Assembly (NCBI GenBank): GCA_026388275.1
Contig: JAPLKB010000004.1
Location: 1 to 55,162, forward strand
Direction of reading: 5' to 3'
DNA: 55,162 nt
DNA from: Pseudomonadota bacterium
Lineage (GTDB): Bacteria; Desulfobacterota; Syntrophorhabdia; Syntrophorhabdales; Syntrophorhabdaceae
Both the position numbers and the translations under genes were made by a program. The notes beneath the pieces were generated by a model. That model was not told where the DNA came from. It worked only from the letters and a program-made list of their open reading frames with translations, and made no database searches. Shown here piece after piece: positions 12,291 to 55,162 of the stretch. The number at the start of each line of letters is the position of its first letter. The first letter of the stretch is position 1.

Positions 12291-12587
12291 TCAGGGCGAT
12301 GTCTTTACGTCTTCCTTTTCTCCAGCAGCTTCCTCTTCCGCCGCGTTCTCCTGCTCCTCAGCAACTTCCTGCCCTTCTATCAACTCTCCTTCCTGTCCCT
12401 CTATCAACTCTCCTTCCTGTCCCTCTATCAACTCTCCTTCCTGTCCCTCTATCAACTCTCCTTCCTGTCCCTCGGAAACATCTTCTGCTTTTTGCCCGAA
12501 TCGGCGCTGTCGCTTTTCTTCCTGTTTTTTCAGCCTGGCACTTTCTTTCTTTCTTTTTTCGCTTTTAAAGCCTCCGTATTTTCCCAT
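12291..12587 (-). CDS. Small charged protein with internal GQEGELIE repeats
   Basis: 98 residues. The N-terminus MGKYGGFKSEKRKKESARLK is strongly basic and resembles small uncharacterised proteins I recall from deltaproteobacteria. The middle is four perfect copies of an eight-residue acidic unit (GELIEGQE) and the C-terminus is Glu/Ala-rich. AAGGAGG with six-base spacing precedes the ATG, which supports a real gene. The charge split (basic head, acidic tail) suggests a nucleic-acid- or ribosome-associated role, but no function can be assigned. Confidence 0.72.
   Translation of the reverse strand: MGKYGGFKSEKRKKESARLKKQEEKRQRRFGQKAEDVSEGQEGELIEGQEGELIEGQEGELIEGQEGELIEGQEVAEEQENAAEEEAAGEKEDVKTSP
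12376..12471. repeat. Four perfect 24-bp tandem repeats (in-frame minisatellite)
   Basis: TCTATCAACTCTCCTTCCTG plus TCCC, four identical copies at 12376, 12400, 12424 and 12448, encode the eight-residue acidic repeat of the minus-strand small protein. Because 24 is a multiple of three, copy-number change would alter protein length without a frameshift. The partial preceding unit (CTTCCTGCCC) suggests past slippage. Confidence 0.95.
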
Positions 12588-15850: not shown

Positions 15851-17260
15851 ATGAAAAACAAACGAATATTAATTATTGACGACGATGATGATCTGAATAT
15901 TGTTTTAAAAGAGTATTTTAGCGACTACGGAGTAACCTCCTATACATACAGTACGCCACCTGACATAGAGAAGGAATTAAAAGAAAAAAACCCATTTGCA
16001 GTCCTTCTTGATATTCGTTTACCTAAAATCTCCGGGATTGATCTTTTAGAACAGATAAAAAAGTTAAGACCGAATTTGCCTGTTATCATGATGACAGGAT
16101 ATGCTGATAAAGAGAAGAATCTTGAGTCTTTAAGGAGGGGAGCTTATTCTTTTTTAACAAAGCCCTTTAACAGCTTGGAGGAATTGTATCATATCGTAAA
16201 TAACGCAATAATTTATTACAGTGAGTTCCTTAAGGCATCCGAGTTGATGCAGGAAGTAAATAAACAGCGTGAAACTGAAAAGTTAAATTTAATTGAGCTC
16301 GATTTTTTAAAAAACCTTCATCATATGATCGGGGAGACTGAAGATCCGGTATTTGTGATGGAGAACTTTTATACTCTCATCAAAACGTTTATTTCTTTTG
16401 ATGTATTTGCGTCATTAATGCAGAAGGATGACGCAGTCGTTATGCAGATATCTCCGAACATTGAGGCAAGCAAGCAGCTTTTGGATTTTGTATCAAATAC
16501 TTTTTTAAAACAAATAATCGAATTATCATCTGTGGAAACACGGGCAAAAGTAATTATTGATATTGACAAATCAGTTCCCGATTCCGACGAAAAAGATTTT
16601 GTATATATTGTATCCGACTTTTCATCAAAGAACCGGGTATATGGCTATGCGGGGTTGTTCAGGGCTCTGCCTTTTACTTCTGATGAACAGGTCATATTCA
16701 ACAGGTTTTGTTCTCATGTCTCCTTAACACTTGAAAAGATAAGGCTTTTTAATGAAATTAAAGATCTTTCTATTTATGACGGTCTTACAGGTGTTTATAA
16801 CCATGCTTTTATTGTTAATGCCCTGGAAGATGAGATTGAAAGATCAACAAGGTACGGTTCCCAGCTCACAATTGCACTTTTTGACATAGATGATTTTAAG
16901 AAGGTTAATGATACGTTCGGACATCTTGCAGGAGACTACGTATTGAAGAGAGTTGCAGAGATATTAAAAAATGGCTTGAGAGTCATTGATATGGTTGGAA
17001 GATATGGCGGGGAAGAATTTCTGGTAATCATGCCGGAGACATTTTTAGTGCAGGGAGTTAAGGTTAGCGAACGTTTAAGAAAAGATATAGAAAATGAAAA
17101 TTTTTTATACGAAGATAAAAGTATAAAGATTACTATTAGCGGCGGGGCGGCCCCTTTTTCTCAGGGGTTGGACGTAAATAAAATTATAACGATTGTTGAT
17201 GAAAATATGTACAAATCAAAAAATACAGGGAAAAACAGGGTTTGTTATGATAAAAATTGA
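15851..17260 (+). CDS. Response regulator diguanylate cyclase (REC - sensor-like linker - GGDEF)
   Basis: 469 residues. An N-terminal receiver domain (1-120) has the acidic patch IIDDDDD, phospho-acceptor Asp54 (LLDIRLPK) and Lys104 (FLTKPF). The middle (about 145-300) is GAF-like. The C-terminal GGDEF domain (about 310-465) has the GGEEF active site at 386-390 and an RxxD inhibitory site (RVID) five residues before it. It should make cyclic di-GMP when phosphorylated, with product inhibition. The ATG follows the preceding terminator directly and has no visible Shine-Dalgarno. The cognate kinase is not adjacent. Confidence 0.93.
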   Translation: MKNKRILIIDDDDDLNIVLKEYFSDYGVTSYTYSTPPDIEKELKEKNPFAVLLDIRLPKISGIDLLEQIKKLRPNLPVIMMTGYADKEKNLESLRRGAYSFLTKPFNSLEELYHIVNNAIIYYSEFLKASELMQEVNKQRETEKLNLIELDFLKNLHHMIGETEDPVFVMENFYTLIKTFISFDVFASLMQKDDAVVMQISPNIEASKQLLDFVSNTFLKQIIELSSVETRAKVIIDIDKSVPDSDEKDFVYIVSDFSSKNRVYGYAGLFRALPFTSDEQVIFNRFCSHVSLTLEKIRLFNEIKDLSIYDGLTGVYNHAFIVNALEDEIERSTRYGSQLTIALFDIDDFKKVNDTFGHLAGDYVLKRVAEILKNGLRVIDMVGRYGGEEFLVIMPETFLVQGVKVSERLRKDIENENFLYEDKSIKITISGGAAPFSQGLDVNKIITIVDENMYKSKNTGKNRVCYDKN

Positions 17261-26164: not shown

Positions 26165-26448
26165 ACCGGGGCTCACGTCGCCCCCTCCACCGGCAAAGCC
26201 GTTGGAGCCACCCCCTCTCGCTCACTTTGTGAGCTATTTATCACACTTACCTTCATTTACACCCTATTTATCACACTTACCTTCATTTACACCGGGGCTC
26301 ACGTCGCCCCCTCCACCGGCAAAGCCGTTGGAGCCACCCCCTCTCGCTCACTTTGTGAGCTATTTATCACACTTACCTTCATTTACACCGGGGCTCACGT
26401 CGCCCCCTCCACCGGCAAAGCCGTTGGAGCCACCCCCTCTCGCTCACA
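26165..26448. repeat. VNTR of GC-rich hairpin repeat B (three 96-bp units, with a nested 30-bp duplication)
   Basis: Units start at 26165, 26291 and 26387. Each reads ACCGGGGCTCACGTCGCCCC, then CACCGGCAAAGCCGTTGGAG, then CTCTCGCTCACTTTGTGAGC and TATTTATCACACTTACCTTC. The first-to-second step is 126 bp because a 30-bp segment (TATTTATCACACTTACCTTC ATTTACACCC) is doubled there; the second step is 96 bp. The third unit is cut short after CTCGCTCAC. A single inverted copy lies at 8981-9079. Internal stems (GCTCAC/GTGAGC, CGGC/GCCG) make it REP-like. The proline-rich frame across it is an artefact. Confidence 0.93.
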
Positions 26449-41550: not shown

Positions 41551-42588
41551 TCAACTCCCTCTCCTTGCAAGTTTACTTGCAAAGATACTTATGAGTCCGC
41601 CAAGCATAATATATCCTATCAAAACTTCTGCGATTGTTACAATTGCCGCAGTCGATGTATTCGGAAAGATATCACCCCCGAGCGTAGTAAAGGTTACTAC
41701 GCTGTAATAAATCATGGTTATAAAATTAAACTCGAGTTTTGGATTATAAAAGTGGTTAGAGCCCATAAAAAAGAATATGAAGGCAAATAACATTATCAAT
41801 AGGGATGACCAGACGGCCCATCTGGTAATAGATCTTCCGCAATTTGAGAGTATCCACCAGACAAAACATAAGAAACTTCCAAAACCGGTTTCCGTGAGTT
41901 CCTCTAAATAATCCTGATCCTGAATAAAAGCTCTGAATCTCTGGCTTCCATAACAGGCAACATAGGCACCTCTGCACCGCATGGTAGTATCCAGCATTAT
42001 ATCGAATCTTCTTTTCCAAAGGGCTGTTGGATTTAATCTCGTTTCCTTTAACAGCCTTAATAGGATTTTTTTATCATATGCAGCAGAGGTGACATTTGCT
42101 CCTTCCAGATTTGCAGCCTTCAAGTTGGCACCCTTCAAGTTGGCGTCCACCAAATATGCATTTTTAAAGTTTGCATAGGCAAGCATGGCATTTTCGAGGT
42201 GTGTGTGAGACAAATCAGCATTCTGCAGGTATGCATCCTCTAATGATGCATTATGCAGGTTTGCGCCGCGGAGGTCCGCTCCCTTCATATTGGCAAAGAG
42301 AAGTACTGTCTGTTCCAGATGTGCAAAGGCAAAATGTGCCTTTTTAAGCTGTGCATGGGAAAGGTTGGCACCTTTCAGATTTGCATGCGTAAAATCTGCA
42401 TTTTCAAGTTGTGCAAAGGAGAGGTTGGCACCCTCAAGTCTGGCATGGGAAAAGTTTATATCTTTTAAGCTCGCTTTCTCTAAATCTATACCCCTAAGAT
42501 CAATCTGTTTGTCATGGTTCTGTTCTCTCCATTTATTCCATGCTTCAGCACCCTGAAGCAATATTGCTATTTGTTGTTTGTTTGTCAT
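41551..42588 (-). CDS. Pentapeptide-repeat protein fused to a two-helix potassium-channel-like domain
   Basis: About 345 residues. Residues 30-170 are tandem A(D/N)LxX repeats (GANLSFAQLENADFTHANLK) forming a right-handed quadrilateral beta-helix. The C-terminal part has one helix (SSLLIMLFAFIFFFMG), a pore loop YYSVVTFTTLGGDIFPN and a second helix (IVTIAEVLIGYIMLGGLISI), the ion_trans_2 layout. The selectivity filter reads TTLGGD instead of TVGYGD. The cytosolic repeat region may gate or anchor the channel. GGAG is eight bases before the ATG at 42588. Convergent with the kinase gene, 1 bp apart. Confidence 0.88.
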   Translation of the reverse strand: MTNKQQIAILLQGAEAWNKWREQNHDKQIDLRGIDLEKASLKDINFSHARLEGANLSFAQLENADFTHANLKGANLSHAQLKKAHFAFAHLEQTVLLFANMKGADLRGANLHNASLEDAYLQNADLSHTHLENAMLAYANFKNAYLVDANLKGANLKAANLEGANVTSAAYDKKILLRLLKETRLNPTALWKRRFDIMLDTTMRCRGAYVACYGSQRFRAFIQDQDYLEELTETGFGSFLCFVWWILSNCGRSITRWAVWSSLLIMLFAFIFFFMGSNHFYNPKLEFNFITMIYYSVVTFTTLGGDIFPNTSTAAIVTIAEVLIGYIMLGGLISIFASKLARRGS

Positions 42589-42839: not shown

Positions 42840-42894
42840 ATTTTAATATAATAGAAACACTGTTTCACAATATGAAACTAAAGGGGTGGTAATT

Positions 42895-44205
42895 ATGAAT
42901 GAATTCTGGAACAAGTATACCGAAACGTTACCCAGAGAAAAGTTGGATGCTGTTGAATTCTCATATTTCAAAACCTTGTTTTCCTATGGCAAAGCCAACT
43001 CAAATCTCTACAAAGAAAAATTGAAGGGAATAGATGTCGAAGATATCAAAACATTTGAAGATATCAAAAAGGTACCCTTCACTTACAAAGAAGAACTGAG
43101 AAAATGGCAGGAAGATGTCGAACCCTTTCCGTATGGAGGACTTCTTGGTATTAATATCGAAGAAGTTTCCAGCTTCAGGCAGACAAGCGGAACAACCGGA
43201 AGGCCTGTCTATGTTCCTGAGAGCTACGAAAGTTGGCAGTGGAGGATTGAGTCATGGTGCCATATACTCTGGATGGCAGGATTCAGACCCTGGCACAGGG
43301 TTTTTCTACCCTTCGGATACAACGTATATGTAGCATTCTGGGAAGCACATTACGCTGCAGAAAAGATAGGATGTGAAGTTGTGCCTGGTGGAGCCCTTGA
43401 TACAAAAGGAAGGGTTAACAAAATCGTAGAGCTCAAAGCAAATGCACTGGCAGGTACTCCAACATATCTTCTCAATATTGCCCAGGAAGCCATATCAATG
43501 GGCATTGACCCGAAGTCGCTCGGGATTGAGAGGGCTATAGGCGCAGGCGAACCTCTTCCTGAAGCAACACGCTTACGGATTGAGGCAACATATGGCTGCA
43601 AGATGTTTGATCATATCGGCAGCACTGAAACATGCGGTTTTGCAAGTATGTGTAAAGAACAGAAAGGGCTTCATATAATAGAACCTTTTTTCCTTCTTGA
43701 AATGCTTGATCGCGAAACCCTCTCAAAAGAGGTGGAAGTGGGTGAGCAGGGCGTAATAGTTATTACCCCTCTTGGCAGAAGGTCTTTCCCTGTAATTCGT
43801 TTTAATACAAATGATGTGGCAATCAAAGGTCCCGACTCCTGTGGATGCGGGAGAACATCTAAAAAGCTGATGGAGATTGTCGGCAGGGTAGATGATATCA
43901 GCAAGATTCGTGGTGTACTTTTCTCACCGAAAACAGTTGAACAGTTTATCAGAGCGGATTTTCCGGAAATTATTGAATACGAACTTGTTGTTACTCGTGA
44001 AGACATCATGGACAATATTCTTCTGAGGATTGAAGTTGATCAATCCCTCAGCAAGGAAGCAGCCGAAGATGTGGCCAAGAGAGCAGGTGAAGCACATAAA
44101 ATCAAAACAAATCTATCATGCAAAGTGAAAGTTGAGCCTCCAGGAGCTTTGCCACGGTATGACCTCAAGGCAAAACGATACAAAGATATGAGAGGAGGAC
44201 ACTAA
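42895..44205 (+). CDS. Phenylacetate-CoA ligase family (PaaK-like) AMP-forming acyl-CoA ligase
   Basis: About 436 residues of the PaaK branch: SFRQTSGTTGRPVYVPESY (ATP-binding), the PaaK-type YGCKMFDHIGSTETCGFAS, then DSCGCGRTSKKLMEIVGRVD, and a C-terminal DLKAKRYKDMRGGH. The cysteine pair in CGCGR is common in this branch. It activates an aryl or short-chain acid with CoA. GGGGTGG precedes the ATG at 42895. The following gene starts within its stop codon (TAATG), and a GcdA-like carboxyltransferase gene lies 380 bp downstream. Confidence 0.88.
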   Translation: MNEFWNKYTETLPREKLDAVEFSYFKTLFSYGKANSNLYKEKLKGIDVEDIKTFEDIKKVPFTYKEELRKWQEDVEPFPYGGLLGINIEEVSSFRQTSGTTGRPVYVPESYESWQWRIESWCHILWMAGFRPWHRVFLPFGYNVYVAFWEAHYAAEKIGCEVVPGGALDTKGRVNKIVELKANALAGTPTYLLNIAQEAISMGIDPKSLGIERAIGAGEPLPEATRLRIEATYGCKMFDHIGSTETCGFASMCKEQKGLHIIEPFFLLEMLDRETLSKEVEVGEQGVIVITPLGRRSFPVIRFNTNDVAIKGPDSCGCGRTSKKLMEIVGRVDDISKIRGVLFSPKTVEQFIRADFPEIIEYELVVTREDIMDNILLRIEVDQSLSKEAAEDVAKRAGEAHKIKTNLSCKVKVEPPGALPRYDLKAKRYKDMRGGH

Positions 44206-44357
44206 TGGACGAGATCAGAAACGAAATAAAGAAGATTGAAGAGAGCGCTGAAAAGTTGAGAGTTCTGGCAGGCGACAACAATGCCATTGCTAAAAACGCA
44301 AGCATAATCCTGAAGTTTATATACATCCTGAAATTTATAACGCCTGCAACAGATTAG
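44205..44357 (+). CDS. 50-residue small protein translationally coupled to the ligase
   Basis: 50 codons, ATG in the ligase stop (TAATG), with GAGGAGG six bases upstream. It starts MDEIRNEIKKIEESAEKLRV and ends in a hydrophobic stretch (ASIILKFIYILKFITPATD): a charged amphipathic helix and then a short membrane-prone helix. A strong terminator-like hairpin follows 13 bp after the stop. No family recognised; the coupling suggests a partner subunit or membrane tether of the ligase, which is inference. Confidence 0.75.
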   Translation: MDEIRNEIKKIEESAEKLRVLAGDNNAIAKNASIILKFIYILKFITPATD

Positions 44358-44370
44358 TAAAATCATATAT

Positions 44371-44412
44371 GATTTTGATTGCCCCGCAAAAAACTGCGGG
44401 GCAATCAAAATC
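44371..44412 (+). terminator. Long hairpin ending the ligase unit
   Basis: GATTTTGATTGCCCCGCA (44371-44388) pairs with TGCGGGGCAATCAAAATC (44395-44412) without mismatch around a 6-base loop. The stem is 18 bp; the trailing sequence TTCTATC has only a weak T-run. Confidence 0.75.
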
Positions 44413-44513
44413 TTCTATCAATCATAAGGAAATGAAAAATATCACATGGCAAACTCATTATACGTATCAATTGATTATTGTTATTATAATTTCCGTGTTT
44501 TTTGTATTTTATC

Positions 44514-44543
44514 TTGACAAATACATGGTATTAAAAATATAAT
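44514..44543 (+). promoter_or_regulatory. Consensus promoter of the carboxyltransferase gene
   Basis: TTGACA (44514-44519), 18-bp spacer, TATAAT (44538-44543): both hexamers are exact consensus. The ATG is at 44589. Confidence 0.8.
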
Positions 44544-44588
44544 TGTGAAAATAATTACAAATATTCAAAAACCCACTGGAGGCAATAC

Positions 44589-46307
44589 ATGAGACCATAT
44601 TTTGAAAAAATGCAGGACTGGGGCAAGCCAGTTAAGGTCAATGCAGCAAATGCGGAACAGATCAAAAAAGTAGAACAGGAAATAGCGGCACTTGTTGAAG
44701 AGAAGATGAAAGCTGGTCTTCCAAAGGAAACATTGAATAAAAGAGGTGAATGGACAGTTCATCAGAGACTTGAGTATATTCTTGATCCCGGTACATGGGC
44801 ACCTCTCCATATGTTGTATGATCCCATGGATGAAGAATCCGGAACAACAGGCGTAGTTGATGGTCTTGGAAGAATTAACGGAAGATGGTGTGTCATTATA
44901 GGTTTTGACAACAAAGTCATGGCTGGTGCATGGATTGCCGGTCAGGCTGACAACATACTCAGAGTAACGGATATTGCAAAAAGGCTTCATTGCCCTCTCG
45001 TATGGCTTGTCAACTGCAGCGGCGTTAAACTCACTGAGCAGGAAAAAGTCTATGCCAACAGGCGCGGTAACGGTACAACATTTTTCAGACATGCAGAACT
45101 CAATAAACTCGGTATCCCTGTCCTTGCTGTCATTTATGGAACCAACCCGGCAGGCGGCGGTTATCAGGGTATTTCTCCTACTTTGCTTCTTGCCCATAAA
45201 GACTGCAACATCGCAGTAGGCGGTGCAGGCATCGTCAGCGGTATGGCCCCTAAAGGATATTTTGATGAGGCAATGGCCGAGCAGTTAATTGAAGCAACAA
45301 GAAAATTTAAATCAATACCGCCCGGTAGGGTTGAGATTCACTATGATCATACAGGATTTTTCAGAGAAGTACATCCAACCGAAGAAAGTCTTCTTGACTC
45401 TCTCAAATCATGGGTAGTGAAACTTCCCGCCTACGACGCAAGTTTCTTCAGGGTAGCAGCACCGGCAGAACCAAAATTCCCGGCAGAAGATTTATATAGC
45501 ATATTAGCGTTTAATCAGAAGATGGTCTATGACGCAGAACAGTTCATGGCAAGGCTGGTTGATGGAAGCGAACATATGGAATTTAGACCTGATTTTGGTT
45601 TTGAGCTTTACACAGGCCTTGTGAAAATAGATGGATTCCTTATCGGTATTGTAGCAAACAGACAGGGTATGTTGCCGAAGGGCTATCCTAAGTATGCACC
45701 ATATCCCGGCATAGGCGGCAAGTTTTACCGCGAAGGACTTATCAAAATTAATGAGTTTGTTACTCTCTGTGGCAGAGACAGAATCCCCATGGTATGGCTC
45801 CAGGATACATCGGGAATTGACGTTGGAGATATCGCTGAAAAAGCAGAGCTCCTCGGTCTTGGTCAGGCTCTTATTTATTCTATCGAACAGAGCGGTCTTC
45901 CTATGATGACAGTTATATTAAGAAAAGGCACAGCAGCAGCTCACTATATCATGGCAGGTCCTCAGGCCAACAATAACAACGCTTTTACGCTCGGCGTTGC
46001 AACAACAGAGATCTATGTTATGCACGGTGAAACTGCAGCGGCTGCAAGCTTTGCAAGAAGGCTTGTGAAAGAAAAAGATGCAGGCAAACCTCTTGCACCG
46101 GTAATTGAATCAATGAATAAAACCGTACAGGAGTATGTTGATAAGTCAAGGCCGTCCTACTGTGCAAAAACAGGTATGGTTGACGAAGTAGTAGCACTGC
46201 CTGCATTGAGAACCTATCTTGTTGCATTTGCAAATTGCTGCTATCAGAATCCGGAATCTATTACACCACAGCACCAGATGATTTTACCAAGAATTATCAA
46301 AGGTTAA
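44589..46307 (+). CDS. gcdA: Glutaconyl-CoA decarboxylase alpha-subunit-like acyl-CoA carboxyltransferase
   Basis: 572 residues, the GcdA length, with both crotonase-like carboxyltransferase halves. N-half motifs: TTGVVDGLGRINGRWCVIIG, QADNILRVTDIAKRLHCPL and NPAGGGYQGISPTLLL. C-half motifs: GIVANRQGMLPKGYP, PMVWLQDTSGIDVGD and KGTAAAHYIMAGPQANNNN. In the decarboxylase this subunit moves the carboxylate from glutaconyl-CoA to biotin and yields crotonyl-CoA, the step after ring cleavage in anaerobic benzoate breakdown. Biotin-carrier and membrane pump subunits are absent here, so the native reaction may differ. GGAGG lies six bases before the ATG. Confidence 0.9.
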   Translation: MRPYFEKMQDWGKPVKVNAANAEQIKKVEQEIAALVEEKMKAGLPKETLNKRGEWTVHQRLEYILDPGTWAPLHMLYDPMDEESGTTGVVDGLGRINGRWCVIIGFDNKVMAGAWIAGQADNILRVTDIAKRLHCPLVWLVNCSGVKLTEQEKVYANRRGNGTTFFRHAELNKLGIPVLAVIYGTNPAGGGYQGISPTLLLAHKDCNIAVGGAGIVSGMAPKGYFDEAMAEQLIEATRKFKSIPPGRVEIHYDHTGFFREVHPTEESLLDSLKSWVVKLPAYDASFFRVAAPAEPKFPAEDLYSILAFNQKMVYDAEQFMARLVDGSEHMEFRPDFGFELYTGLVKIDGFLIGIVANRQGMLPKGYPKYAPYPGIGGKFYREGLIKINEFVTLCGRDRIPMVWLQDTSGIDVGDIAEKAELLGLGQALIYSIEQSGLPMMTVILRKGTAAAHYIMAGPQANNNNAFTLGVATTEIYVMHGETAAAASFARRLVKEKDAGKPLAPVIESMNKTVQEYVDKSRPSYCAKTGMVDEVVALPALRTYLVAFANCCYQNPESITPQHQMILPRIIKG

Positions 46308-46324
46308 ATCTTAACAATTTAAAT

Positions 46325-46362
46325 AAAAAACAGGGTGGATTTTTTATCCACCCTGTTTTTTT
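46325..46362 (+). terminator. Intrinsic terminator after the carboxyltransferase gene
   Basis: AAAAAACAGGGTGGAT and ATCCACCCTGTTTTTT pair around a five-T loop, followed by a T-run; the A-run on the 5' side makes it effective on both strands. Confidence 0.93.
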
Positions 46363-46382
46363 ATGAGCCAGTCAACCATTGT

Positions 46383-46423
46383 TGTCATACATGTTGACAG
46401 GCGCAGGCTGTTAGTGCTATAAA
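46383..46423 (+). promoter_or_regulatory. Promoter of bioFA with an overlapping inverted repeat
   Basis: TTGACA (46394-46399), 18-bp spacer, TATAAA (46418-46423). TGTCA-TACATGT-TGACA (46383-46399) is an inverted repeat that overlaps the -35 box, so it may be an operator. It does not match the BirA consensus (TTGTAAACC N15 GGTTTACAA). The start would leave a leader of about 240 bases before bioF. Confidence 0.55.
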
Positions 46424-46656
46424 CTTTTTCGATTATATATTATTTTTTTGGCGGAAACAGACATTGCCGCATTTGAATCAGGTTATAAAACTATTAAATG
46501 AGCCTTTTGCAAATGTATTTAAAGTCGTTTTTCTGTGCAGGCAAGAATCCGGGACGTGTTTAAAATCACAAGGTGTTGCTTTGCGAGTGGAGATTTCTTC
46601 TTCTGCCGGAATAATATAAAAGGACAATAAATACAAAATTTTGCAGGAAGCTCGAA

Positions 46657-46680
46657 ATGCAGGTACTATACAATGCGTAA
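46657..46680 (+). CDS. Seven-codon leader ORF overlapping the bioF start
   Basis: ATG CAG GTA CTA TAC AAT GCG TAA, preceded by AGGA at eight-base spacing. Its last two sense codons cover the bioF ATG (46673) in another frame. It could couple or modulate bioF translation. Too short for composition evidence, so confidence is low. Confidence 0.3.
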   Translation: MQVLYNA

Positions 46681-47842
46681 AAGAATCTATGAAATACTGG
46701 AATATTTTAAAGAAACAGGCAATTACAGGTCATTAAAATATGTAAAGCCCATCTCTGCCGTAAAGATACTTTACAATTCAAAGGAGTATCTCAACTTATG
46801 CTCAAATAGTTATCTTTCTTTACATGTTCACCCTGATGTCGTTGATGCTGCCAGAGATGCTATTGATAAATACGGCGCCGGTATATGTTCCTCCCGGAGT
46901 GTATCAGGCAGTATCGATCTGTGTAAGACGCTTGAACATGAAATTGCGGAATATAAAGGTTATGAAAGCGGACTTATTTTTTCAAACGGGTATATGGCTA
47001 ACATCGGGATAGTCTCTACAATCACACAGGAGGGGGATGTAATCTTCACAGATGAACTGAACCATTCAAGCCTTATAGACAGTACCCGGCTCTCCCGTGC
47101 AAAAAAAGTAATATACAAGCATAGCGATGCAAATGATCTTGAAAAAAAACTAAAAAAGGACAGGGCCCGTGGTAAAAAATTTATTCTTACAGAATCTGTT
47201 TTCAGCATGGACGGCGATATTGCCCCCCTGAAGGATTTGTATCAGCTTAAGGAAAAGTATGGGGCACACATGATGCTGGACGATGCACATGGAACAGGTA
47301 TTTTTGGCGAAAAGGGTACCGGCGTCGAAGAATCATTCGGTTTATCCGGAAAAATGGATACACATATGGCAACCTTCGGCAAAGCGCTTGGTTCATTCGG
47401 TGCTTTTGCATTAGCAGATCCAATAGTAATAGAATTTCTTATAAATAGAGCCCGGACATTTATGTATACGACGGCATTGCCTATGTCATCCCTGGCTGCA
47501 TCACTTGCAGCTTTAAGGCTTATTGAAAATAACACATCTTTTAAGGATGAATTATGGCAAAACATCGAATATGTAAGAACAAATCTCCTCAAGGCCGGTT
47601 TTGATTTAAAAAACAGTACAGGCCCTATTGTACCAATAGTTGTCGGAGAGGATAAAAAAACAGTGAAAATGCAGGACATTCTTTTGAAAAAGGGGCTCTT
47701 TCTGCAGGCCATACGTCCGCCTACCATACCGGAGGGGGCATCCAGGCTCAGGTTAACTATTGTGAGAGGCTTTACGAAGGAAGATATGGATTATGCCATA
47801 GAGACACTTATTGATGCCGGGAAAAAGATGGGGCTTATATAA
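46673..47842 (+). CDS. bioF: 8-amino-7-oxononanoate synthase (KAPA synthase, BioF/Kbl family)
   Basis: 389 residues, PLP-dependent alpha-oxoamine synthase: GAGICSSRSVSGS, DELNHSSLIDSTRLS, ESVFSMDGDIAPL, LDDAHGTGIFGEKG and the PLP lysine in ATFGKALGSFGAFAL. BioF condenses pimeloyl-ACP or pimeloyl-CoA with alanine; Kbl-type relatives use glycine. The adjacent bioA makes BioF the better call. It lies 67 bp before bioA. Confidence 0.87.
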   Translation: MRKRIYEILEYFKETGNYRSLKYVKPISAVKILYNSKEYLNLCSNSYLSLHVHPDVVDAARDAIDKYGAGICSSRSVSGSIDLCKTLEHEIAEYKGYESGLIFSNGYMANIGIVSTITQEGDVIFTDELNHSSLIDSTRLSRAKKVIYKHSDANDLEKKLKKDRARGKKFILTESVFSMDGDIAPLKDLYQLKEKYGAHMMLDDAHGTGIFGEKGTGVEESFGLSGKMDTHMATFGKALGSFGAFALADPIVIEFLINRARTFMYTTALPMSSLAASLAALRLIENNTSFKDELWQNIEYVRTNLLKAGFDLKNSTGPIVPIVVGEDKKTVKMQDILLKKGLFLQAIRPPTIPEGASRLRLTIVRGFTKEDMDYAIETLIDAGKKMGLI

Positions 47843-47909
47843 AAGTAGCGATGCGTTTAGTTAAACCAGGATTTTACTCTTGACCCCTGCAATTTTTAAT
47901 GGAGGAATC

Positions 47910-49262
47910 GTGTACGACAAAGAAAAACTGACTGAGTGGGACAAAACATACATCTGGCATCCTTTTACTCAGATGAAAGACTATATGGATATGCATCCGC
48001 TGGTAATAGAGAAGGGTGAAGGGTGCTACCTTGTTGACATTGATGGTAAAAGATACATTGATGGAATATCCTCTCTATGGGTAATTATCCATGGCCATGG
48101 GAAAAAGGAGTTGGTAGAAGCAATTAAAAAACAGGCAGAGGCCCTATGCCATTCAACCTTGCTCGGTATTGCCAATGTTCCATCCGTTGTTCTTGCTAAA
48201 ATGCTTATTGATATTTCTCCAAAAAGCCTGTCTAAAGTTTTTTACTCAGATAATGGTTCAACATCTGTTGAGATTGCCCTTAAGATGGCTTACCAGTACT
48301 GGCAGCAAAAGGGAGAAAAAAAGAGAAAACGTTTCATATCCTTTACAAACGGATATCACGGCGATACGATCGGCGCTGTAAGTGTAGGCGGCATTGATCT
48401 TTTTCACAAAGTCTACGGACCGTTGCTTTTCAAAACTTACAAGTCTCCCGCACCCTATTGTTACAGATGTCCTTTAAAGCTTGAAAAAGAATCGTGCGGC
48501 ATGGCTTGTATTCAACAGTTTGAAGAAGTTGTCAGAAAACACAGAGATGAAGTTTGCGCTGTAATCATCGAGCCTGTTGTCCAGGGAGCTGCCGGTATTA
48601 TCGTCCAACCCGAAGGTTTTCTCTCTGCAATATATAAAATAGCCAAAGACAACGGGCTGTTGTTCATTGCTGATGAAGTAGCTACCGGTTTTGGTAGAAC
48701 CGGCACAATGTTTGCCTGTGAAAAAGAAGGAGTTGAACCTGATTTTCTGTGTCTTGCTAAAGGCGTTACCGGCGGTTACCTCCCGCTTGCTGCAACTCTG
48801 GCAACTGATGAGATTTTCAAAGGCTTTCTCGGTCAATTCGAGGATTTCAAAACATTCTTCCATGGACATACATACACAGGGAATCCTGTCGCATGCAGCG
48901 TAGCAATAGAAAATCTTAACCTTTACAAAAAAGAGAGCACACTGGAAAACCTGCAAACAAAGATAGCTCTGCTAACCAGGGAATTACAGAAGTTTAACGG
49001 GCTCTCTCACGTCGGGGAGATACGTCAGGCAGGTTTTATGGTAGGCATAGAACTTGTAAAAAGCAAAAAGACAAAACATCCTTATCAGCCGAAAGAAAAA
49101 ATTGGCCAACAGGTAATCATGGAAGCAAGAAAAAGAGGCGTCATCATTCGCCCCCTCGGCGATGTAATCGTTCTTATGCCGCCTCTTGCCATAGAGGAAA
49201 GTACACTTCAGGAACTTGTAAATGTAACCTACGAGAGCATAAAGGCTGTAACGGGCACATAA
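47910..49262 (+). CDS. bioA: Adenosylmethionine-8-amino-7-oxononanoate aminotransferase
   Basis: About 450 residues starting at the GTG at 47910, with GGAGG at five-base spacing (an upstream in-frame TTG at 47880 lacks one). The opening WDKTYIWHPFTQMKDY is the BioA hallmark, followed by GYHGDTIGAVSVGG, FIADEVATGFGRTGTMFACE and the PLP lysine in CLAKGVTGGYLPLAATLA. It transaminates KAPA to DAPA using SAM (or lysine in some lineages). bioB, bioD and bioW/bioC/bioH are not in the window. Confidence 0.93.
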   Translation: MYDKEKLTEWDKTYIWHPFTQMKDYMDMHPLVIEKGEGCYLVDIDGKRYIDGISSLWVIIHGHGKKELVEAIKKQAEALCHSTLLGIANVPSVVLAKMLIDISPKSLSKVFYSDNGSTSVEIALKMAYQYWQQKGEKKRKRFISFTNGYHGDTIGAVSVGGIDLFHKVYGPLLFKTYKSPAPYCYRCPLKLEKESCGMACIQQFEEVVRKHRDEVCAVIIEPVVQGAAGIIVQPEGFLSAIYKIAKDNGLLFIADEVATGFGRTGTMFACEKEGVEPDFLCLAKGVTGGYLPLAATLATDEIFKGFLGQFEDFKTFFHGHTYTGNPVACSVAIENLNLYKKESTLENLQTKIALLTRELQKFNGLSHVGEIRQAGFMVGIELVKSKKTKHPYQPKEKIGQQVIMEARKRGVIIRPLGDVIVLMPPLAIEESTLQELVNVTYESIKAVTGT

Positions 49263-49309
49263 TTCCAATATATTCTTATGGAAAGCCACCGGCGTTAGCC
49301 GATGGCGAA

Positions 49310-50365
49310 TCAGTTCCCTGCCCTGATATTGAGTATATCCCCGTCCTGCACAATGTAGGTTTTGCCTTCAAGCCGCCAGACACCGGCTTTTTTGCATCCT
49401 GCAAAACCGTTGTAGCGCATGAAGTCGTCATAGGAAACCGTCTCTGCACGTATAAATTTCTGTGAAAGATCAGTGTGAATCGCCCCGGCAGCCTCCTGGG
49501 CATTCATCCCGTTTTTAATCGGCCAGGCACGGCATTCATCATCTCCAACAGTCAAGAATGAGATAAGGCCGAGCGTTTCAAAGGCAAGCCGTATAATGCG
49601 TCCGGCCACTGATTCTTTAATACCGTATTCTTCCATAAAAACAGCTTTTTCCTCAGGCTCCATAAGCGCAAATTCGGCTTCGAGTTTAGCGCAGGCAGTT
49701 ATTATCGGGATATGGGATGGAATAATTTTTCTGATGTCGTCAATCGCGGATTCGGAGGCAGCCAGCTTCTCTTCATCACAGTTTAAAACAGCCATCATGG
49801 GTTTTTGAGAGAGAAACTGAAAACCCCTTAGTTCTTTTCCGTGTTCTTTAAGGGATTCGAGGGTGGCAAGGGGTTTGTCGGTGTTCAAATGGTCGAGACA
49901 TTCGACAAGCAGGGCCTCTTCCTGGGCAAGAGCATTGCTTTCCTTTTTGCCCTGCTGCTTGCGCATCCTCTCCAGACGTGTTTCAATCTGCAGAATGTCT
50001 GCAAAGATGAACTCATTAAAGATCGTATAGAATTCACCTGAGATATCTACTGGATTCCCGTTGTCAAAGTTGCGCAGAACAAGTATGAATGCGTCGCTGT
50101 TGCGCATTTCCCGTAGGGTTTTAGCACTTATTGTTTCACTTCTTACGTTGCCTTCTTCAATTGCTACAGTATCGGATAATGCTATTCGTGCGTATATCGT
50201 CTTTTTAGGTTTAAAAATTTCCGTCAATTTATCAACGCGCTCGTCAGGGACGTCGATCACCGCGACAGCATCCGAGTTGGGCTTGCTTTCTGAGGCTATG
50301 CCGCTTAGTGCCTGAAAGAGCGTTGTTTTACCGCATCCTGTACTGCCTATGACTGAAATATTCAT
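49310..50365 (-). CDS. ychF: YchF/OBG-family P-loop NTPase
   Basis: 351 residues. The P-loop GSTGCGKTTLFQAL is present, with DVPDERVDKLTEIFKPKK as the switch region and LNCDEEKL in place of the guanine-specifying NKxD, which in YchF favours ATP. The C-terminal DUF933/TGS-like domain ends VQDGDILNIRAGN. It probably binds ribosomes as other YchF proteins do. The P-loop differs from the usual GLPNVGKSTLF, so it may be a diverged subfamily. AGGAG precedes the ATG. Convergent with bioA. Confidence 0.82.
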   Translation of the reverse strand: MNISVIGSTGCGKTTLFQALSGIASESKPNSDAVAVIDVPDERVDKLTEIFKPKKTIYARIALSDTVAIEEGNVRSETISAKTLREMRNSDAFILVLRNFDNGNPVDISGEFYTIFNEFIFADILQIETRLERMRKQQGKKESNALAQEEALLVECLDHLNTDKPLATLESLKEHGKELRGFQFLSQKPMMAVLNCDEEKLAASESAIDDIRKIIPSHIPIITACAKLEAEFALMEPEEKAVFMEEYGIKESVAGRIIRLAFETLGLISFLTVGDDECRAWPIKNGMNAQEAAGAIHTDLSQKFIRAETVSYDDFMRYNGFAGCKKAGVWRLEGKTYIVQDGDILNIRAGN

Positions 50366-50599
50366 CTTCTCCTCTCATTGCCAACCGGAACGGGCATTGA
50401 TGCCGGTGTGAGATTTGTTGCTTGGCTTTTTTTATTTACAACCGATATTATACCTGAATAAGGCATGCATGACAAGGATTTGTACTCCGGGGATTTCCTT
50501 CAGGGATTTTACCAAATTGTACTGCCGAATGATTTTGCTGAATATCCTACACAAAGATACGTACTTATCCTACATACAATATAAATATTTTGTAACAAT

Positions 50600-50686
50600 C
50601 AATAACGATAAGGCTAATCCATTCGCAAGGATGGGACAGAAAGTCACGGGCCTTGCAAGTGCAAGCTGGACTGCCGTGAGTTATTG
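50600..50686 (+). promoter_or_regulatory. GEMM-I (cyclic di-GMP class I) riboswitch
   Basis: P1 is CAATAAC (50600-50606) with GTTATTG (50680-50686). The conserved AAGGC core is at 50610-50614. P2 is CCATTC-GCAA-GGATGG (50619-50634) with a GNRA tetraloop. GGGACAGAAAGTCACGGG (50633-50650) stands for the canonical GGGACGCAAAGCCNCGGG. P3 is CACGG/CCGTG (50645/50673) holding CTTGC-AAGT-GCAAG. A TATAAA box at 50580-50585 would start transcription just before P1. It lies about 90 bases before the giant repeat-protein gene. Substitutions (GCAAAGCC to AGAAAGTC; an extra base before P2) mark a variant, so ligand preference needs testing. Confidence 0.85.
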
Positions 50687-50702: not shown

Positions 50703-50777
50703 ATGCCAGGCAGTTTCCATGCATCCGTTAACCCCGAGGCATCAAAATCATACATCGTAAAAAGGACAATCGTATGA
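50703..50777 (+). CDS. 24-codon leader ORF between riboswitch and giant repeat protein
   Basis: It has AGGAG at five-base spacing (a better Shine-Dalgarno than the main gene), reads MPGSFHASVNPEASKSYIVK then RTIV, and its TGA overlaps the next ATG (ATGA, 50774-50777). This is a layout for translational coupling or a regulatory leader peptide. ATGCC at its start and GGCAT near its middle could pair and hide the first codon. Confidence 0.55.
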   Translation: MPGSFHASVNPEASKSYIVKRTIV

Positions 50778-53700
50778 AAACAAAAAAGACCATTTTATCC
50801 ATATTCTTACTGGCATGTACAGTGTGCTTCATAACTCTGGCTGTGCCGGATCAGGCACGGGCGTGGAGAGAATGGCCTGCGGGAACATATCCCACATATG
50901 TTACGGATTCGACCTGGAGCGAATCTATGTACAACTATGCGAATTTGGAAAACTATGCCACAATGAACTTCTCACCGGACTGGTTGAACTGGATCTTGGG
51001 TAGCCCTGCCGGGCTGTACAATAACGCCACCTATACCAACAACGGCACTGTAAACATCATCCACTATGATTGGGCGATCGGTGACGGCAATGCCTTCCTC
51101 CGGAACGGCAATACTTTCTATAACAACGGCACTGTGAACAACTACGGGAATGTTACCAGTTATTACTACTTCTACCAGGGCAACTTGTTACCATCGGTAA
51201 GTTCGGGTGTTTTTAACAACTACAATAACACGGTCTTTGAGGGCATTTTAAAGAACTACAATCAGTCCGTAGTAAACAATTACGCCGGCGCTGTCTGGGC
51301 ATTTACAAGCACAGGAGGGATTCAAAACGAAGCCGTGGTGAATAACGCCGGTACTATGACCAACAACGGCACTTACCTATATAACCGCTACGGTACTTTT
51401 AACAATTCCGGTACGCTGATAAACAGCTCCGGTGCCAAGATACTTAACCAACTGGGTACCATCAACAACTCAGGCACCCTGACTAACTATGGTATACTGG
51501 ACAATGCATGGGGCGGCGGCGGCACCATCAACAACACCGGTACGCTGAACAACTACGGCACAATCGACAACAGCGACAGCAGAAGTACGCTGATCCTTGC
51601 CGCAGGAAGCTCCTATGACTTTACCGGCGGTACGCTGAATAATTCTGGTACACTTATATTCAGACGCGACTTCACTTTAGGCGAAACAAAGGCAGGCGCT
51701 GTTAATCTCAATGGGGGCACCCTGCAGAACTATGCAGTGCTCACTAACCTTGCAGGACATACCCAGGGCAACGCCGGTACACTAAACAATAACTCCGGCG
51801 GTATACTGAACAACTACGGTATACTAAACAACTCAGGTACATTGAATCTGGCCGCAGGCAGTTTCTACAACTTTACCGGCGGTACGCTGAACAACTCAGG
51901 CGCGCTGATATTCGGCCGCGACTTTACCTTCGGCGCAGCTAATGCAGGTGTCATTAACCTCAATACGGGAAGTACGCTCCATAACTATGCAGTACTGACG
52001 AACTCAGCAGGCTATACTTTAAACAGTCCCTCCACGACCAATTACTCCGGAGCCACGCTGAACAATTACGGTACGATGAACAACTCAGGTACTCTAACGA
52101 ATGCAGGCACACTGAACATTTACGGCAACTCCGGCTGGCTTGCCAACACAGGTACTCTCACCAACTCAGGTACGCTGAACAACTCCTGGGTACTGGAAAA
52201 CAAATCCGGCGCTGCACTGACCAGTTCCGGTATACTTAACAATAATTCCACCGGCACCTTTAACAACTCCGGTACACTGACAAACTCCGGTACACTGACA
52301 AACTCCGGATATATCATCGGTACCGGCACGTACAGACAGACAGCCGGTACAACTACCAACACAGGGAGCATGAGCCAGGCATCAATAAACATCCAGAGCG
52401 GCACCTTTAATCAGCAGGCAGGCAGTCTCACAGCGCCAGGAATAACCAACAGCGGCATCTTCAACTATTCCGGAGGATCGTTAACCTTTAGCACATTCAA
52501 CAATACCGGTACATTCGATCTCACCGCAAGCAGTTCCTATGATTTTACAGGCGGCACGCTGAGCAATTCAGGAACACTTTTATTCCATAATGATTTTACC
52601 TTCGGCGGAACAAAGTCAGGCATTGTGAACCTCAATGCAGGCGGTACGCTAAAAAATTATGCGGTGCTGACAAATACAGCAGGGTATACCCAGGACAATG
52701 CCGGCACACTGGTAAACTACAATACATTGTATAACAAAAACAGCGCCACGATGAATAACACCGGTACGCTGGAGCTTGCTGCAGGAAGCTTTTATGACTT
52801 TACCGGCGGTACGCTGAATAATTCCGGCACACTTATATTCAGACGTGACTTCACTTTCGGCGCAACAAAGGCAGGCATTGTGAATCTCACGGCAGGAAGC
52901 ACGCTCAAGAACTATGCAGTGCTGACCAATCCGGCAGGGCATACGCAGGCCAATCCCGGGACTCTGATAAACTATGGCACGCTCAACAACGTCGGCTCTG
53001 TGTTTAATAATACAGGCACTCTGGAACTTGCTGCAGGAAGCTTTTATGACTTTACCGGAGGTACGCTGAACAATTCCGGAACACTTATATTCAGACGTGA
53101 CTTCACTTTCGGCGCAACAAAGGCAGGCATTGTGAATCTCACAGCAGGCGGTAAATTGAACAACTATGCAATACTGACCGGTGCTGCAGGCTATACCCTC
53201 AGCAACCCCGGTACACTGAACAATATGTCCGGCGGTACGCTGATCCTTGCCCCAGGGAACTCTTATGATTTTACGGGCGGCACACTGAATAATTCAGGAA
53301 CTTTGGAATTCAACCGTGATTTCGCCTTCGGCGAGACCAAAGCAGGCACTGTTAACCTCAATGCAGGAAGCACGCTCAAGAATTATGCGGTACTGACTAA
53401 TCGGGATGGACATACACAGGACAACGCAGGCACTGTGGTAAACTACGGCACACTGAATAATAAAGACAGCGCTGTTCTTAATAACACTGGCACGATCGAA
53501 CTTGCCGCAGGAAGCTCATACGACTTTACCGGCGGCACACTGAATAATTCCGGCATCCTGAAATTCAGAACTGACTTTGCCTTCGGCGAAACCAGGGCGG
53601 GTACCATAAACATGAATGGCGGCACACTGACAAATTATGCAGTGCTTACTAATCTGGCAGAAAATTCGCTTAACAACTTCGGTATTCTGAATAACAACTC

Positions 53701-55162
53701 CGGCAGCACGCTGAATAACTCAGGTACACTGACGAGCTACGCTGCACTGAACAATGCCGGTGTTCTGAACAACAACAATGTAATGGAACTTGCCGCAGGC
53801 AGCTTCTACAACTTTACCGGCGGTACGCTGAATAACAACGGTACGCTCATATTCCGGACTGACTTCACCTTCGGCGCATCCAATGCCGGCACCATGAACA
53901 TGAGCACAGGGAGTACACTCCAGAACTATGCCGTGCTGACCAATACAGTAGGCTATACCCTGAACAACTCCGGTACGCTGAGTAATAACTCGGGGAGCAC
54001 GCTGAGAAACTACGGTACGCTGAATAATAACGGCACGATCGAACTTGCCGCAGGAAGCTCCTATGATTTTACCGGCGGTACACTGAATAATTCCGGCACA
54101 TTGATTTTCCGGACTGACTTAACCTTCGGCGAAGCAAGAACAGGCACCATAAACCTTAATGCAGGCGGCACGCTGCAGAGTTATTCAGCGCTGACGGTCA
54201 ATGGCTATTACTATGACTGGAATTACGGGTGGATATGCTCTACACTGAACAATTCAGGTACGCTGACAAGCCGCGGCACTTTGAACAACCACGGCAATAT
54301 TAACAACTACGGCACTCTGGAACTCGCAGCAGGAAGTTCCTATGATTTCACAGACGGCACACTGAATAACAACGGTACATTGATTTTACGGACTGATTTC
54401 ACCTTCGGCGAAACCAGGGCTGGGACCATAAACCTGAACGCAGGCGGCAATCTTCAGAACTATGCTGTCCTGTCCAATGTTGGTTATATGCAGAATGGTT
54501 CCTGGTTGGATAGCTCCGGCAGCACACTGACAAACTACGGCACTCTGAATAACTCGGGCTATCTGGCCAACTACTGGGGCACGATTACAAACTCCGGCAC
54601 GCTGAATAATTATGCTGGTGCCACTCTGGAAAATTATTACAGCACGCTGAACAATAACAGCGGAGCCATGCTTAATAACTACGGCTACCTTTACAACGAC
54701 ATGACCGTGCTAACTAACTCAGGTACTCTGAACAACTCCGGCTATCTGGGCAACTCCACAATAGTAAATAACTCCGGCACACTGAACAATAATGCCGGCG
54801 GCTGGCTGGACAACTATGGTACAATCACAAATTCCGGCACGGTAGTGAACCAGGGATCAATCACCGGTTCCGGCACCTACACCCAGACTGCAGGCACCAC
54901 CGCCAATACGGGCAGCATAACCCAGGCAATAGTTGACATCCAGGGCGGTACCTTCAACCAGCAGGCAGGGTCTCTGAGCGCAGCTGCTGTTATTAACACA
55001 GGTACTTTTAATTATTCAGGCGGTGATGTATATGCCAATATCTATAATAATACAGGCGGTACAGCAAATATATCAGGAGTTAATGCTCTTACTATTAACG
55101 GAAGCGTTACAAATGCAGGTACATTTAATGTCAACACGGATTTGACTGTTACAGGAGGTTTC
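50774..55162 (+). CDS. Giant secreted Asn/Gly/Thr-rich repeat protein (adhesin-like beta-solenoid), C-terminus beyond window
   Basis: 1463 codons without a stop, running off the right edge. MKTKKTILSIFLLACTVCFI opens a signal peptide (cleavage near ARA-WRE). The mature part is short NN(S/Y)GTL units and ten copies of a larger module (YDFTGGTLNNSGTLIFRRDF, then KAGxVNLNxGGTLxNYAVLT) at 51620, 51872, 52544, 52799, 53051, 53270, 53525, 53813, 54068 and 54347. A second block (QTAGTTANTGSITQA, FNQQAGSL) occurs at 52330 and 54880. This fits a beta-helical surface adhesin of the hemagglutinin or PEP-CTERM-associated type. The start has AAGGA seven bases upstream. The anchor or secretion domain is unseen. 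G+C looks higher than in neighbouring genes. Confidence 0.9.
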   Translation, partial: MKTKKTILSIFLLACTVCFITLAVPDQARAWREWPAGTYPTYVTDSTWSESMYNYANLENYATMNFSPDWLNWILGSPAGLYNNATYTNNGTVNIIHYDWAIGDGNAFLRNGNTFYNNGTVNNYGNVTSYYYFYQGNLLPSVSSGVFNNYNNTVFEGILKNYNQSVVNNYAGAVWAFTSTGGIQNEAVVNNAGTMTNNGTYLYNRYGTFNNSGTLINSSGAKILNQLGTINNSGTLTNYGILDNAWGGGGTINNTGTLNNYGTIDNSDSRSTLILAAGSSYDFTGGTLNNSGTLIFRRDFTLGETKAGAVNLNGGTLQNYAVLTNLAGHTQGNAGTLNNNSGGILNNYGILNNSGTLNLAAGSFYNFTGGTLNNSGALIFGRDFTFGAANAGVINLNTGSTLHNYAVLTNSAGYTLNSPSTTNYSGATLNNYGTMNNSGTLTNAGTLNIYGNSGWLANTGTLTNSGTLNNSWVLENKSGAALTSSGILNNNSTGTFNNSGTLTNSGTLTNSGYIIGTGTYRQTAGTTTNTGSMSQASINIQSGTFNQQAGSLTAPGITNSGIFNYSGGSLTFSTFNNTGTFDLTASSSYDFTGGTLSNSGTLLFHNDFTFGGTKSGIVNLNAGGTLKNYAVLTNTAGYTQDNAGTLVNYNTLYNKNSATMNNTGTLELAAGSFYDFTGGTLNNSGTLIFRRDFTFGATKAGIVNLTAGSTLKNYAVLTNPAGHTQANPGTLINYGTLNNVGSVFNNTGTLELAAGSFYDFTGGTLNNSGTLIFRRDFTFGATKAGIVNLTAGGKLNNYAILTGAAGYTLSNPGTLNNMSGGTLILAPGNSYDFTGGTLNNSGTLEFNRDFAFGETKAGTVNLNAGSTLKNYAVLTNRDGHTQDNAGTVVNYGTLNNKDSAVLNNTGTIELAAGSSYDFTGGTLNNSGILKFRTDFAFGETRAGTINMNGGTLTNYAVLTNLAENSLNNFGILNNNSGSTLNNSGTLTSYAALNNAGVLNNNNVMELAAGSFYNFTGGTLNNNGTLIFRTDFTFGASNAGTMNMSTGSTLQNYAVLTNTVGYTLNNSGTLSNNSGSTLRNYGTLNNNGTIELAAGSSYDFTGGTLNNSGTLIFRTDLTFGEARTGTINLNAGGTLQSYSALTVNGYYYDWNYGWICSTLNNSGTLTSRGTLNNHGNINNYGTLELAAGSSYDFTDGTLNNNGTLILRTDFTFGETRAGTINLNAGGNLQNYAVLSNVGYMQNGSWLDSSGSTLTNYGTLNNSGYLANYWGTITNSGTLNNYAGATLENYYSTLNNNSGAMLNNYGYLYNDMTVLTNSGTLNNSGYLGNSTIVNNSGTLNNNAGGWLDNYGTITNSGTVVNQGSITGSGTYTQTAGTTANTGSITQAIVDIQGGTFNQQAGSLSAAAVINTGTFNYSGGDVYANIYNNTGGTANISGVNALTINGSVTNAGTFNVNTDLTVTGGF
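51588..54420. repeat. Higher-order tandem DNA repeat inside the giant gene
   Basis: Ten modules whose TTTACCGGCGG anchors are spaced 252, 672, 255, 252, 219, 255, 288, 255 and 279 bp, every step a multiple of three. Modules at 52799 and 53051 are nearly identical over their first 100 bp (TTCAGACGTGACTTCACTTT), implying recent duplication. Copy number could change by in-frame recombination. Confidence 0.9.

Follow-up and report, generated by a model that had tools for sequence, protein, structure and literature searches.

What kind of protein is encoded by a gene that carries ten copies of one repeat module, what sets its production and how is its product anchored? These questions are raised by an incomplete gene at the end of contig JAPLKB010000004.1 (C4 in our numbering), from the draft genome of a bacterium placed by GTDB in the Syntrophorhabdaceae (Desulfobacterota). 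The window analyzed here is the entire contig, 55,162 nt in length, and the draft genome comprises 3.53 Mb in 71 contigs and is 99.5% complete. The gene probably encodes a beta-helix surface or matrix protein, controlled by cyclic di-guanosine monophosphate (c-di-GMP) and sorted by an exosortase. It would belong to a set of sorted surface proteins, encoded across the genome, that share control by c-di-GMP. PEP-CTERM proteins, to which this set is related by its tails, are common in environmental bacteria, and their function and the timing of their production are poorly known.

Riboswitches and sorting tails

The gene (50774..55162, plus strand, as are all its features given below) is preceded by a predicted c-di-GMP-I riboswitch aptamer (RF01051) at 50603..50678, which scores 48.1 bits (gathering score 35) and lies 95 nt upstream of the start codon. 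The same family yielded 22 matches in the genome at E <= 0.001, 17 of them above the curated cutoff. In 18 of the 22, spread over 13 contigs, the next gene on the same strand ends, as judged by eye, in a VPxP motif, then a hydrophobic segment and basic residues. As a nineteenth candidate we count the window gene, its own tail lying beyond the contig; the other three matches (C46, C8:85342 and C7) have other or no clear neighbors. About 30 other tails of the VPLPA/PEP-CTERM type were returned by one homology search of the genome, with more downstream of riboswitches. The only exosortase encoded in the genome is XrtD (584 bits with TIGR04152, cutoff 400), which is specific for VPLPA, in keeping with tails that read VPLP, VPIP or VPVP. 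The synthesis of c-di-GMP is plausible given eight GGDEF matches in the genome, one of them in the window. Coupling between c-di-GMP riboswitches and PEP-CTERM genes is known on a small scale, and we found no report on the present scale in the open literature. With most c-di-GMP-I riboswitches standing before PEP-CTERM genes, there is a direct, testable link between an attach-or-swim signal and a sorting system.

Outside this genome, no RF01051 match was obtained in the same-genus genome G001 or in four module-carrying g4 genomes (150 candidates were scored per genome, and a zero is not absolute), and two Aquabacterium metagenome-assembled genomes (MAGs) gave one and two matches. Two further observations concern the same themes. 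A response-regulator-type GGDEF protein of the diguanylate cyclase family is encoded at 15851-17260 of the same contig, about 34 kb ahead of the window gene. Long open reading frames (ORFs) with VPxP-type tails, of 828, 1346 and 1368 aa, occur on L072 (G000:C67) and L054 (G000:C27), the first of them behind a weak c-di-GMP-I match.

The window gene is a single uninterrupted frame, of which 1463 aa are encoded before the contig ends. Since this frame reaches the last base of C4 (55162) in a draft assembly, the module number and total protein length are minimum values. Its N-terminus (MKTKKTILSIFLLACTVCFITLAVPDQARA) was read by eye as a Sec-type signal peptide, with a charged start, a hydrophobic core and an ARA cleavage-like site. 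Within the genome, the window protein is most closely related (E 9e-134) to a paralogue of 970 aa that is complete and lies on contig C19; it ends VPVPPAVWLLGSGLLGLIGIRRKLKKQ, by eye a tail of the VPLPA/PEP-CTERM type. That contig begins with an isolated C-terminal fragment of the same type (C19:3-167, SGWKWDVAYLDLVGADGKIDTVRLTANAVPIPGALWLFGPGLIGLAAMRRRFRK), which is, C4 aside, the strongest further match in the genome to the C-terminal region of the paralogue. It is reasonable to assume from this similarity that C19:3-167 probably holds the 3′ end of the window gene, which would join C4 to C19. The C-terminal region of the paralogue is also matched by a FNQQAGSL block within the window protein (52298-52594, E 4e-23), which recurs as a second GTYTQTAGTT...FNQQAGSL block at 54848..55159 (E 2e-21); the window protein therefore looks like two unequal tandem units. 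In the paralogue this block sits about 230 aa ahead of the C-terminus, and with the block so near the end of C4, little of the gene may be missing at its 3′ end.

In the folded window leader, an extra P1 helix (UCAAUAAC / GUUAUUGA) encloses the aptamer. Its alignment to RF01051 places a G at model position 11, which we take to be equivalent to G20 of Vc2; this base would be as expected for recognition of c-di-GMP, not of cyclic GMP-AMP (cGAMP). The G20A form of this riboswitch class binds cGAMP (PMC6274999). A 24-codon upstream frame (MPGSFHASVNPEASKSYIVKRTIV, 50703..50777) follows a strong ribosome-binding-like site (AGGAGAG), and its stop overlaps the start of the window gene (ATGA); the leader of the C19 paralogue likewise has ATG then PGS codons. 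Pairing against the aptamer extends over 6 bp in the window leader, a length reached in 29% of shuffles and hence not notable. In the paralogue leader (L010:10763-10953, minus strand), a weak c-di-GMP match reaches 28.9 bits against the GGC subtype, whose cutoff is 59. Over 9 bp, the 3′ side of this degenerate aptamer has a perfectly complementary sequence in the leader, as in 0.2% of shuffles; this complement is possibly an expression platform.

The module array and its fold

A preliminary description of the locus had proposed ten near-identical modules, spaced mostly by 252-255 bp and recently duplicated, in a beta-solenoid adhesin whose length changes by recombination. Ten copies of one 84-residue-class module do lie in a single frame at 51596-54577, each with a profile E <= 2.7e-34 and thus far beyond chance; the profile was trained on these ten copies and is matched by C19 and other genomes too. 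Modules 1 (51596..51847, E 4e-41) and 2 (51848..52096, E 1e-38) are followed by a 423-bp interruption (52097..52519) that is made of short NSGTL-type repeats and then a GTYRQTAGTTTNTGS...FNQQAGSL block. After it come modules 3 (52520..52774, E 3e-37), 4 (52775..53026, E 5e-41), 5 (53027..53245, E 7e-37), 6 (53246..53500, E 5e-39), 7 (53501..53788, E 6e-36), 8 (53789..54043, E 7e-41), 9 (54044..54322, E 3e-34) and 10 (54323..54577, E 2e-37). Lengths run from 73 residues in the short module 5 to 93 in module 9 and 96 in the long module 7. The start-to-start spacings are 252, 672, 255, 252, 219, 255, 288, 255 and 279 bp, so that the proposed rhythm holds for five of nine and fails for the others (219, 279, 288 and, across the interruption, 672 bp).

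The proposed near-identity and recent origin fared worse. Over whole modules, copies share just 57-83% of their residues and 62-83% of their nucleotides. Only modules 4 and 5 are close, with 92% DNA identity over their first 144 bp and two stretches, of 62 and 32 bp, without a mismatch. At fourfold-degenerate sites, all pairs agree at 24-68% except 4/5 (74%), where unrelated sites would be expected to agree at 26%. As silent sites have mostly diverged and only copies 4/5 share a long recent stretch, the array is old. Duplication of longer blocks is likely, since two non-neighboring copies, 2 and 8, pair in the module tree.

These results bear on the idea of a length-variable adhesin, in which near-identical copies recombine and the array shrinks or grows, tuning reach within a population. 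The exact runs shared by copies 4/5 would favor it, as would the number of copies found, which varies from 1 to 10 between related proteins and species, and two modules of the relative G032 that are 94% identical in DNA. The G032 pair indicates that fresh duplication occurs in this protein family and, together with the differing copy counts, that length change over evolutionary time is real. However, every pair but 4/5 has diverged at silent sites, and exact repeats on which recombination could act are scarce beyond runs of about 30 bp; we regard ongoing length variation as an unlikely account of the window gene.

The proposed fold, on the other hand, was borne out. The AlphaFold2 model, which covers modules 3-6 and was built from a nine-row alignment made up partly of the protein's own repeats, is a beta-solenoid like those of autotransporter passengers, with a predicted local distance difference test (pLDDT) score of 80.4, a predicted template modeling score of 0.77 and no stretch under pLDDT 50. 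A disordered chain, which the preliminary description had named as the outcome that would speak against it, was rejected on the strength of this confident model. Strands of 3-4 residues run all along the model, mostly 6-8 residues apart, and we estimate from the strand list that each module may add about four three-strand coils to a rod. VIA-align, applied to Foldseek's own list, gave Z 16.2 for EspC, 15.7 for EspP, 14.8 for UpaB and 14.3 for pertactin; other beta-helices in the list score Z 10-14, and the structural matches therefore support the fold, not the function.

The beta-helix fold is shared by polysaccharide lyases, tailspikes and antifreeze proteins, which occur in the same fold lists, and the PEP-CTERM/EpsH system has been tied to exopolysaccharide (Haft et al. 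2006, PMC1569441). A soluble or matrix protein with a non-adhesive role, for example an exopolysaccharide scaffold or an ice-binding or sugar-acting beta-helix, could fit both facts. We give it little credence, however, because the window protein has no Pfam family match and no NCBIfam family above cutoff, and no obvious catalytic set is seen in its Asn/Thr/Gly-rich repeat (the whole protein is 16% N, 14.5% T and 14% G). There was no PDB sequence match either. The NCBIfam family TIGR02588, at 32 bits against a cutoff of 95, was set aside as far below threshold, and a phage or plasmid origin was rejected, no relatives being found among viral contigs or plasmids.

Repeats of other kinds occur elsewhere in the window: units of 30, 96 and 126 bp at 26181-26447, in a region of overlapping ORFs; a 24-bp unit (CTTCCTGTCCCTCTATCAACTCTC) in 4.5 copies at 97% matches, inside a small ORF (12365-12473); and 15- and 60-bp repeats at 42101-42447 in a minus-strand ORF, with a pentapeptide-repeat-like rhythm.

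Two anchors for one passenger family

The same-genus genome G001 keeps the gene order of window positions 42886-50365, at 88-97% protein identity. Its DNA similarity ends near window position 50490; beyond lie other genes (one aldo/keto-reductase-like by eye), and the adhesin is absent from the matching place. Gain or loss therefore seems to have affected riboswitch and gene together, in a single stretch. The module itself is rare: a pattern-based scan of 84,980 species genomes, with the window's own genome left out, gave five loci, two of them in the Syntrophobacterales bacterium Delta_02 MAG, one in the delta MAG bin-4002 and two in Aquabacterium MAGs. A wider look at relatives added the carriers G030, G032 and G034. 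Delta_02 corresponds to G036 by identical match positions and hence shares its GTDB family with the window organism, for which a syntrophic lifestyle, the setting in which attachment had been proposed to matter, is possible.

Module and PF03797 autotransporter barrel stand in one ORF in G030, G032, G034 and bin-4002 (G060). No exosortase was found in G032, G034 or G060, and both exosortase and barrel are present in G030 and G036. The Aquabacterium module proteins end in VPEPSAVLL-type PEP-CTERM tails, with four exosortases per genome. The window genome has no PF03797 match anywhere (at 99.5% completeness and with the end of the window gene off the contig). The barrel-bearing relatives and the C19 paralogue have a GTLAPGNS.GTLTITGNY region in common, after which the tail and barrel forms therefore part. 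As judged from these sequences, members of one passenger family are anchored in two ways, by an exosortase tail or, in relatives, by an autotransporter barrel, and the family offers a natural comparison of how the two display the same protein. The module tree is poorly resolved (66 columns, four of 22 branches well supported), and neither the place nor the direction of the anchor change can be read from it. We tentatively raise the possibility that, in this lineage, beta-helix passengers of one family switched between two unrelated anchors, matching the machinery that each genome retained, while a large set of c-di-GMP riboswitches spread before exosortase substrates to form a one-signal switch of the surface coat.

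That the off-contig C-terminus of the window protein is itself a beta-barrel, making a type V autotransporter as in the module-sharing relatives, would agree with their single-ORF arrangement and with the paralogue's retention of the region that precedes the barrel in them, but it is highly improbable given a genome with XrtD, a tailed paralogue and no PF03797 match.

We therefore favor the exosortase-sorted, c-di-GMP-controlled protein. It would consist of a Sec signal peptide, at least 1,400 residues mostly of solenoid repeats and, off the contig, a probable VPLPA/PEP-CTERM-type tail that XrtD would process. c-di-GMP would set expression through the leader riboswitch, presumably with more protein at high c-di-GMP. 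A surface role, already part of the preliminary description, gains indirect support from the signal peptide, the paralogue tail, the VPLPA-specific exosortase and the homologues on autotransporter barrels. There, the protein may help cells to attach to surfaces or to one another; adhesion is its most likely job if Ag43-like passengers and the Clostridioides difficile adhesins (PMC6366702) are taken as analogues.

Several observations weigh against this reading. C4 does not include the tail of the window gene, and the C4-C19 join was not seen directly. The tail of the C19 paralogue falls below the curated PF07589 and TIGR03370 cutoffs in single-protein scans, although a scan of the genome puts it at the cutoff of PF07589. 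The window riboswitch deviates from the genome majority (AAGGCUAAUCC instead of AAAGCCAAACC), and no terminator-type expression platform was found in the window leader. Finally, the best Foldseek matches in PDB are weak (TibA at E 0.012, also HMW1 and Ag43).

Comparison with known systems

Exosortase substrates of the PEP-CTERM and VPLPA-CTERM/XrtD types (Haft et al. 2006, PMC1569441; TIGR03370, TIGR04152) have in common with the present set a signal peptide and a long body of low homology, along with many tail-bearing genes per genome, an encoded XrtD and, in our case, a tailed paralogue. For PEP-CTERM genes, a sigma-54 motif with PrsK/PrsR has been described upstream (PMC1569441). Here, by contrast, a predicted c-di-GMP riboswitch precedes many of the members, and the window gene's own tail is unseen.

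The passengers of Ag43, TibA, UpaB, pertactin and EspP resemble the window protein in their predicted beta-helix fold, and the module is itself the passenger of an autotransporter in relatives. The differences are a window genome without a barrel and an identity to solved passengers of about 11-16%.

The nearest precedent for the genomic arrangement is Methylophaga nitratireducenticrescens GP59, in which four c-di-GMP riboswitches lie beside PEP-CTERM genes within about 18 kb (PeerJ 2025, PMC12530212). In both organisms, riboswitches of the c-di-GMP type adjoin genes with PEP-CTERM or VPLPA-CTERM tails; the present genome differs in having 18 such cases over 13 contigs, plus one that precedes a giant beta-helix protein.

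In C. difficile, the sortase-dependent adhesins CD630_28310 and CD630_32460 are controlled by c-di-GMP riboswitches (reviewed in PMC6366702). The logic would be common to both systems: a second messenger, acting through a riboswitch, sets the amount of a sorted surface adhesin. The parts are not the same, with class II riboswitches and a sortase in the Gram-positive organism and class I riboswitches and an exosortase here.

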